Shown piece by piece: positions 5,101 to 6,590 of a stretch of DNA of 53,934 nucleotides. A program made the translations under genes and the position numbers. This DNA comes from Burkholderiaceae bacterium. Lineage in GTDB: Bacteria; Pseudomonadota; Gammaproteobacteria; Burkholderiales; Burkholderiaceae. The stretch covers positions 1 to 53,934 of the forward strand of contig JAIXPY010000096.1 in assembly GCA_027486025.1 (NCBI GenBank), read 5' to 3'. The notes beneath the pieces are model-generated. The model ran no database searches. It was given only the letters and a program-made list of their open reading frames with translations, and was not told the DNA's origin. The number at the start of each line of letters is the position of its first letter. Position 1 is the stretch's first letter.

Positions 5101-5688
5101 ATGAATTCACTACTGGTTGTTTACCTTCACGGCTTTCGTTCGTCCCCGCGCTCGAGTAAAGCTCGGATGACTAGCGATGCTATCGCGCATCGCGTAGAGC
5201 AGGGGGCTGCCATCGAGTGGTATTGCCCGCAATTAGATGCCTCACCTCAAAAATCGATGGACATGGTACAGCGATATATTGATGCATCCAAGGCAGATCG
5301 ACTATCCGTAATTGGTTCTTCTTTGGGCGGCTTTTATACCAACTACCTCGCAGAACGCTACGGTTGCAAAGGCATCGCCTTAAATCCAGCAGTGAGGGCA
5401 GGGCGTGAACTAGCGCCGCATATCGGGATGATGACGGCCTACGATAGCGAAGAGCCTTTTGACTTTCGTGCTGAATACATTGATGAGCTCAATCGCATGC
5501 AGGTGGAATCAATCACTCTGCCAGAACGGTATCTGCTATTAGCCGCAACCGGCGATGAATTACTCGACTGGCGTGAGATGGCTGCTTTTTATCCTGGTGC
5601 CCAGCAGGTCATTATTCAAGGAAGCGATCACGGGATTGATAATTACGGTGATTATCTTGATGCGGTCATCCGCTTCGCTTGTGATTAA
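5101..5688 (+). CDS. yqiA: YqiA/YcfP-family alpha/beta hydrolase (esterase)
   Basis: YLHGFRSSPRSSKA, GSSLGGFYTNYLAERYG, GSDHGIDNY. Confidence 0.85.
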   Translation: MNSLLVVYLHGFRSSPRSSKARMTSDAIAHRVEQGAAIEWYCPQLDASPQKSMDMVQRYIDASKADRLSVIGSSLGGFYTNYLAERYGCKGIALNPAVRAGRELAPHIGMMTAYDSEEPFDFRAEYIDELNRMQVESITLPERYLLLAATGDELLDWREMAAFYPGAQQVIIQGSDHGIDNYGDYLDAVIRFACD

Positions 5689-5727
5689 TTAAATAGGCTC
5701 ATTTCATGAGCTTCTAGCTTGACATAC

Positions 5728-5771
5728 TGCACTCTGGACTAACCAGCGCACTAGCGCTAAACCGGAGTGCA
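5728..5771 (+). other. Two-tier RNA hairpin overlapping the ribosome-binding site of a small ORF
   Basis: TGCACTCTGG ... AGCGC-ACTA-GCGCT ... CCGGAGTGCA: 10-bp outer stem with one G-U, 5-bp inner stem; the GGAG lies in the outer stem. Confidence 0.5.
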
Positions 5772-5773
5772 CT

Positions 5774-5872
5774 ATGCAAACCCTAAAAACATTTTTTATC
5801 TGGCTAGTATTTGCTGAAAAACAAGGCGAGTGGCAACGTTCAGAATGGATTTGCCGCAATCGAATTGAGTAA
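5774..5872 (+). CDS. Candidate small ORF, 32 aa (MQTLKTFFIWLVFAEKQGEWQRSEWICRNRIE)
   Basis: ATG six nt after GGAG, ends TAA; below the length cutoff of the supplied ORF track. Coding status unproven. Confidence 0.35.
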   Translation: MQTLKTFFIWLVFAEKQGEWQRSEWICRNRIE

Positions 5873-6008
5873 AAAAATCCGAATGGGATGGCCTAGTCAT
5901 TGCCGCATAGGGTCAATGGCAGTGCGTTGATCACCCCTATAATTTTCTGTAAGATGATTGTCATGCAGTATTGCGATGATTGGGGTCATTACAGAGAGGG
6001 GAGTGTGC

Positions 6009-6590
6009 GTGCTGAGCATCTTGAAGTTAGACGCCGGCGGTATTCCGCAGTGCTGGATTAATGCGGAGGAGGCGACCAAACAATATGCGGATCAGAGCGT
6101 ATTGTGGACACTGGGCGATCCGATTGCGGTGATGCGCGGTGGCATCTCACGGGCTACTGGCAAACAATCCATCATTGAGCTTCATTCTATCGTTGCCGTC
6201 AAAGGCTCGGCACGCATCAATCTATTCGATGTTGTGCCGGGCATTACGAAGCGTAAGTTGTACCGCCGTGATCGTGGGCTGTGTGCCTATTGTGGCGAGC
6301 GCATTACCGAAAACGATGCTGAAGCGGAACACATTATTCCCAATAGCCGTGGCGGTAAATACACGTGGATGAATTTGGTTGTTTCTTGCAGGCCATGCAA
6401 TCAACGTAAAGGCAATCGCACCCCTGAAATGGCCAACATGAGTTTGCTATATGCGCCTTATATGCCAAGCTTGTATGAGGATATGATTCTCAAAGGCAGA
6501 AATATTCTGGCCGATCAAATGGATTTTTTGGCTGCAAACTTACCCAAGAATAGCCGCCTGCTGGAAGGATTATTCTGGGAGCAATCCTAA
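6009..6590 (+). CDS. HNH endonuclease family protein
   Basis: CAYCGERITENDAEAEHIIPNSRGGKYTWMNLVVSCRPCNQRKGNRTPE (HNH with two CxxC). GTG start at 6009 chosen because AGAGGGGAG precedes it; ORF track starts at TTG 5958. Confidence 0.88.
   Translation: MLSILKLDAGGIPQCWINAEEATKQYADQSVLWTLGDPIAVMRGGISRATGKQSIIELHSIVAVKGSARINLFDVVPGITKRKLYRRDRGLCAYCGERITENDAEAEHIIPNSRGGKYTWMNLVVSCRPCNQRKGNRTPEMANMSLLYAPYMPSLYEDMILKGRNILADQMDFLAANLPKNSRLLEGLFWEQS

Follow-up and report, generated by a model that had tools for sequence, protein, structure and literature searches.

In the transposase genes of IS10 and IS50, read-through RNA has an upstream arm that folds back and hides the Shine-Dalgarno (SD) sequence; the mRNA made from the gene's own promoter is without this arm. 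In Caulobacter crescentus, the SOS-independent activator DriD, a WYL protein, is paired with didA, which encodes a small division inhibitor (PMC4211646, PMC12340889). DriD sites overlap with a -35 of poor quality, and their spacing to the -10 element is fixed (PMC12340889). The two small division inhibitors SidA and DidA are controlled by LexA and DriD, respectively (PMC4211646). PafBC of mycobacteria works by sigma adaptation (PMC11804915). Our search of the literature on the SOS response or small proteins of Polynucleobacter found no paper.

The locus described here belongs to a stretch of 53,934 nucleotides (hereafter the window) from a freshwater Polynucleobacter-like bacterium, and 186 Polynucleobacter genomes were used for the survey of the genus. 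A small-protein gene lies between the YqiA and HNH genes, where the initial annotation had placed it. Sequence comparison makes it somewhat probable that this is a single regulated gene, activated by a WYL protein and linked to damage, with a hairpin that would provide fold-back insulation against read-through RNA. The features of the locus are the following.

5101..5688, + strand: UPF0227/YqiA gene, co-directional upstream, possible source of read-through (Pfam PF05728, E 1.4e-40)
5697..5711, + strand: putative palindromic operator GCTCATTTCATGAGC (GCTCA-N5-TGAGC), centre near -31, exact in 18 of 18 non-LexA core loci
5719..5724, + strand: TTGACA, probably not a -35, not conserved among relatives
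5723..5728, + strand: -10 element CATACT, 11 nt 3' of the operator, with this spacing fixed in all palindrome loci
5728..5737, + strand: 5' arm of the SD-sequestering stem, about -7 to +3 (from sequence, folding, arm-swap test and pairing in relatives)
5735, + strand: predicted transcription start (+/- 2), placed 7 nt past the last base of the -10 element
5745..5758, + strand: inner stem-loop AGCGC-ACTA-GCGCT, conserved less strictly (pairing in 72.5% of cells)
5762..5771, + strand: 3' arm of the stem, with the SD sequence inside (from sequence, folding and pairing in relatives)
5774..5872, + strand: small-protein gene, 32 residues, MQTLKTFFIWLVFAEKQGEWQRSEWICRNRIE, TAA included (conserved frame, dN/dS)
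5958..6590, + strand: HNH endonuclease-like gene, downstream, start uncertain (Pfam PF14279)

The open reading frame of 32 codons, which was missing from the list of frames behind the initial annotation, is a real gene, as shown by the intact frames of its relatives and by a low dN/dS. The peptide search that had been suggested was carried out as a six-frame protein search. Clear relatives were obtained in about 46 of the 186 Polynucleobacter genomes, all with intact frames and with one clear copy per genome. Close orthologues are located beside the same genes in six genomes. Compared with these six orthologues, the window gene differs by 8-12 synonymous codons and 0-8 amino acids, and dN/dS is about 0.02-0.03 versus the closer orthologues. 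The HNH gene stays near the peptide gene in the gene order of palindrome-type loci.

The proteins of the family are 31-40 residues long and share the conserved core F-[AD]-E-x-x-G-E-[WF]-x-x-x-E-W-[VI]-C. The N-terminal half is hydrophobic. The tail is polar and conserved and, with its GE-x-x-x-x-EW-x-C signature, is better conserved than the hydrophobic part. The best 19-residue hydropathy is 0.2 in the window form and 0.8-1.5 in forms with a LexA-type promoter (see below). The short form is thus weakly hydrophobic and its insertion into the membrane is not assured.

The peptide has no match in Pfam, NCBIfam or PADLOC and no meaningful match among solved structures. Beyond the genus, only two weak, chance-like matches were obtained among 399 genomes of the order. 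No copy was found in collections of phages, plasmids and viral contigs and no second copy is present in the window genome. An origin as a repeat or a mobile element was rejected on these grounds. The labels of the 33 loci from named genomes are nearly all Polynucleobacter, Burkholderiaceae or beta-proteobacteria. One typical Polynucleobacter-type copy of the locus (L206, CALPOM020000114.1) is labelled Thermoflexus hugenholtzii and is probably mis-binned or mislabelled.

Two types of promoter precede the genes of the family. An exact LexA box, CTGT-N8-ACAG, is present at 28 loci, and the lexA genes of these genomes were confirmed to carry the same form of the box. The palindrome GCTCA-N5-TGAGC is present at 18 loci, including that of the window, where it is the only match to the motif. 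No locus has both elements, and both are missing from three distant relatives. We also looked for a concealed LexA box in the promoter of the window locus, but the window contains none. A role of the palindrome as terminator of yqiA was rejected because its position relative to the peptide gene is kept even where a different or a divergent gene lies upstream.

The initial annotation had noted a TTGACA resembling a -35 and had found no clear -10. The hexamer is indeed present in the sequence. However, relatives read TCGACA, TTGAAA or TTTGCA at this position, and nATACT is kept a few nucleotides further on, at a conserved distance of 11 nt from the palindrome. Because the position of TTGACA varies while nATACT and the 11-nt spacing are kept, TTGACA is probably not a -35. 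Both the TTGACA assignment and the missing -10 can be traced to the different layout of this promoter. On the LexA side, the loci of one subgroup (L036-L038 and L063-L073) have a second LexA box, about 50-63 nt 5' of the first. A UmuD-like gene (L120) with the LexA box CTGTGTTTTTATACAG is present in G202, a genome closely related to that of the window.

The pattern made of the palindrome, 11 nt and the -10 element gave 60 matches in 43 of the 186 genomes, and the reversed control gave 12. A search allowing one mismatch in the palindrome was too loose to be useful. The combined motif precedes genes for a WYL regulator, for a DUF4407 protein, for two small uncharacterized families (about 95 and 120 residues) and for a family of about 150 residues. 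Of 27 regions 5' of WYL regulator genes, 24 contain the exact palindrome, and in two lineages the regulator gene directly adjoins the peptide gene. The regulator is present in 17 of the 18 palindrome genomes versus 7 of the 28 LexA-type genomes (Fisher p 3e-6, a value that ignores relatedness). The palindrome genome in which no WYL gene was found, G098, is 80% complete. The window genome has three sites only, which precede the WYL gene, the 32-residue peptide gene and a gene for a secreted protein, located next to a second WYL gene.

The regulator is composed of WYL (PF13280, E 1.9e-18) and WCX (PF25583, E 1e-14) domains, and HTH_DeoR/HTH_11 matches are seen below their cut-offs. By sequence, it resembles the solved structures of PafBC (E 2.8e-17) and of DriD (E about 2e-6). 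In alignments judged by eye, PafC's two key WYL arginines correspond to one arginine and one alanine, so that ssDNA would be no more than a possible ligand. Predicted binding of the WYL protein to the palindrome is well supported by these associations. Because the palindrome also precedes the WYL regulator gene and several others, the likely activator is a WYL protein of the PafBC/DriD kind.

Other carriers of the motif show additional features. In the window genome, the WYL gene (L235, G000:C24) begins 71 nt past the start of the palindrome and adjoins a divergent ORF of AbrB/MazE-like antitoxin type. The protein encoded beside the second WYL gene, with the same motif (L240, G000:C147), is a secreted protein with NNSPYN repeats. 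The DUF4407 membrane protein gene (L152, L131, L123 and others) has a WYL-type promoter and, in most species, an arm-SD stem that matches the one at the window locus in strength. The secreted-looking 95-residue family, of MLSSLVFITLMPLQVSPSG type (L151, L127, L178), and the 120-residue family, of MRNYTYIDGTRF type (L152, L149, L165), have the same promoter motif and no clear SD stem.

The hairpin described in the initial annotation is borne out by direct reading of the sequence. The outer arms TGCACTCTGG (5728-5737) and CCGGAGTGCA (5762-5771) form 10 base pairs with one G-U. They enclose an inner stem in which AGCGC (5745-5749) pairs with GCGCT (5754-5758) around the loop ACTA. As had also been pointed out, the SD sequence GGAG (5764-5767) is within the stem, 6 nt 5' of ATG 5774. 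The fold has a free energy of -22.7 kcal/mol with z = -5.0, far from chance for a sequence of this composition. Folding calculations give an unpaired probability of the SD of 0.00 in an RNA containing both arms, and of about 0.5 in the shorter RNA that begins at the predicted own start. A search of the window against Rfam gave no match.

The stem is conserved among relatives. In eight sequences, the outer helix is paired in 86% of the cells, and the two helices together in 81.7% versus at most 48% when the pairing is slid. Across clades, the SD and the arm co-evolve. Exchanging arms between clades weakens pairing for the peptide loci (p = 5e-5), for the DUF4407 gene (p = 3.5e-4) and for a LexA subgroup (p = 0.0012), in permutation tests that take clades as independent. 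The same test gave no clear signal with the genes of the 95- and 120-residue families. Taken strictly column by column, covariation within eight close sequences is modest, with both sides changed in 2 of 15 pairs. The arm/SD pairs differ in sequence by clade (TGCACTCTGG/CCGGAGTGCA, TGGCATT/AATGTCA and TGATCTCTC/GAGAGGGTCA; GCATTCATCC/GGATGAATGC upstream of the DUF4407 gene). Stem length, sequence and stability also differ widely. In the stem-bearing LexA subgroup, the promoter is a textbook TTGAAT-N17-TATATT with the LexA box as its spacer, and the arm that pairs with the SD is again placed across the -10/+1 interval. The idea that the stem or the peptide might not be conserved in close relatives is contradicted, since the stem is kept and a peptide family was found.

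The stem is absent at two palindrome loci (G075 and G100). It was found in 0 of 14 loci of the other LexA subgroup, in which the upstream gene is mostly divergent. Upstream transcription is co-directional at the window locus and at most stem-bearing peptide loci, with exceptions. One clade has the stem despite a divergent upstream gene, and the DUF4407 genes bear it whatever the upstream orientation. The orientation of the upstream gene was rejected as a clean predictor of the stem, as it holds only in part when the DUF4407 loci and the LexA subgroups are considered. In the leaders of one LexA subgroup (L040, L046, L049 and L053), a small GC hairpin, for instance GAGGCTAAGCCTC or AGGCACTGTGCCT, is located directly 3' of the LexA box. 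These hairpins are near the predicted 5' end and their sequences vary by species.

The following mechanism can be proposed. A WYL activator of the PafBC/DriD kind would occupy the palindrome 5697-5711 in place of a -35 and would help RNA polymerase to use the -10 element at 5723-5728, with a start near 5735. Because 7 of the 10 nucleotides of the 5' arm are upstream of this predicted start, the gene's own mRNA should be unable to form the stem. In this short mRNA, the SD would be free and the 32-residue protein translated. RNA entering from upstream, for example from yqiA, would carry the 5' arm and fold over the SD, and the protein would not be made. The hairpin thus probably serves insulation from upstream messages rather than sensing of heat or of a ligand. 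Elsewhere in the genus, LexA would instead repress the promoter of this protein. The mutually exclusive LexA- and DriD-type promoters suggest synthesis of the protein following DNA damage. The stem in the clade with a divergent neighbour, and that of the DUF4407 genes in any context, argue that read-through from the neighbouring gene would not be the whole story.

The initial annotation had proposed a thermosensor, a ligand or ribosome switch, or a leader-peptide device, in which the stem would be part of the gene's own mRNA and would open for translation. The strength of the stem and the complete masking of the SD in an RNA that includes it would suit such a riboregulator. However, the conserved promoter sets the predicted +1 within the 5' arm, and the arm is placed alike at the LexA-driven loci with their textbook TTGAAT-N17-TATATT promoter. 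Moreover, no Rfam family matches in the window, and a stem whose sequence, length and stability vary so widely by clade is unlike a tuned sensor. We regard regulation of this kind as quite improbable. Slightly better placed, yet still unlikely, is a logic resembling that of type I toxins, in which a long inert primary transcript would be activated by processing or by a second start. The damage-type promoters, the small hydrophobic protein and a long form that hides the SD are in line with it, and both inert and active isoforms are described for tisB and dinQ (PMC7708055, PMC3567139). The Rfam search of the window shows no antisense RNA, and a polar tail that outdoes the hydrophobic part in conservation is not what is expected of pore-forming peptides.

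Whether the palindrome is that of the WYL protein bears on the same argument. Regulator genes are often under the control of other factors and a few motif genomes have no WYL match, so that the WYL gene might be a mere target of a different regulator. We consider this unlikely, as the WYL gene is the palindrome's most regular partner, co-occurs with it and directly adjoins the peptide gene in two lineages. Finally, short ORFs and hairpins are frequent by chance. Nevertheless, a fortuitous combination of the two without a transcript is extremely improbable here, since the protein, the SD, the operator, the -10 spacing and the arm complementarity are all conserved.

At the level of the genus, we see about an even chance that Polynucleobacter has a LexA-independent WYL damage regulon with the operator GCTCA-N5-TGAGC. 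The new small-protein family would have moved between LexA repression and WYL activation, keeping a promoter-embedded and co-evolving anti-SD arm against read-through. If true, this would give a natural example, beyond Caulobacter, of a small protein linked with the SOS as well as the WYL response to damage. Because one family of proteins would be subject to either type of control, the way in which the WYL branch works would become testable in small free-living genomes. An anti-SD arm between the -10 element and the start might also be a general signature of genes barred from read-through translation. As to the role of the protein, a delay of cell division is the leading guess, a tentative one, less likely than not, drawn by analogy with SidA and DidA; the protein might instead be toxin-like or regulatory.

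The present locus shares with DriD/didA a WYL-domain regulator having a small protein among its putative targets, a palindromic site over a poor -35 at a constant distance to the -10 element (11 nt here) and a site near the regulator's own gene. In contrast, the operator GCTCA-N5-TGAGC does not meet the DriD consensus ATACGAC-N7-GTCGTAT. Therefore, the regulator is not classed as DriD itself. The peptides, of 31-40 residues, are likened to DidA by analogy. SidA of Caulobacter, a 29-residue inner-membrane division inhibitor controlled by LexA, is comparable in size, and 28 genes related to that of the peptide are preceded by a LexA box. Such a box is absent from the window member, and the likeness considered here is one of size and control. 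The regulator resembles PafBC by its WYL-WCX domains and by an upstream element that stands in for the -35. PafBC is a heterodimer that needs RNA polymerase as a partner in order to use its -26 motif, whereas the site here is palindromic. TisB and DinQ of E. coli are small hydrophobic proteins with a link to LexA, and their longer transcripts are inert; they differ from the present family, which has a conserved polar tail and, according to Rfam, no antisense RNA in the window. As in the fold-back of IS10 and IS50, the 5' arm is upstream of the predicted own start and the 3' arm covers the SD. Unlike in these elements, the gene is a chromosomal small-protein gene of damage type, and its arms co-vary in several lineages.
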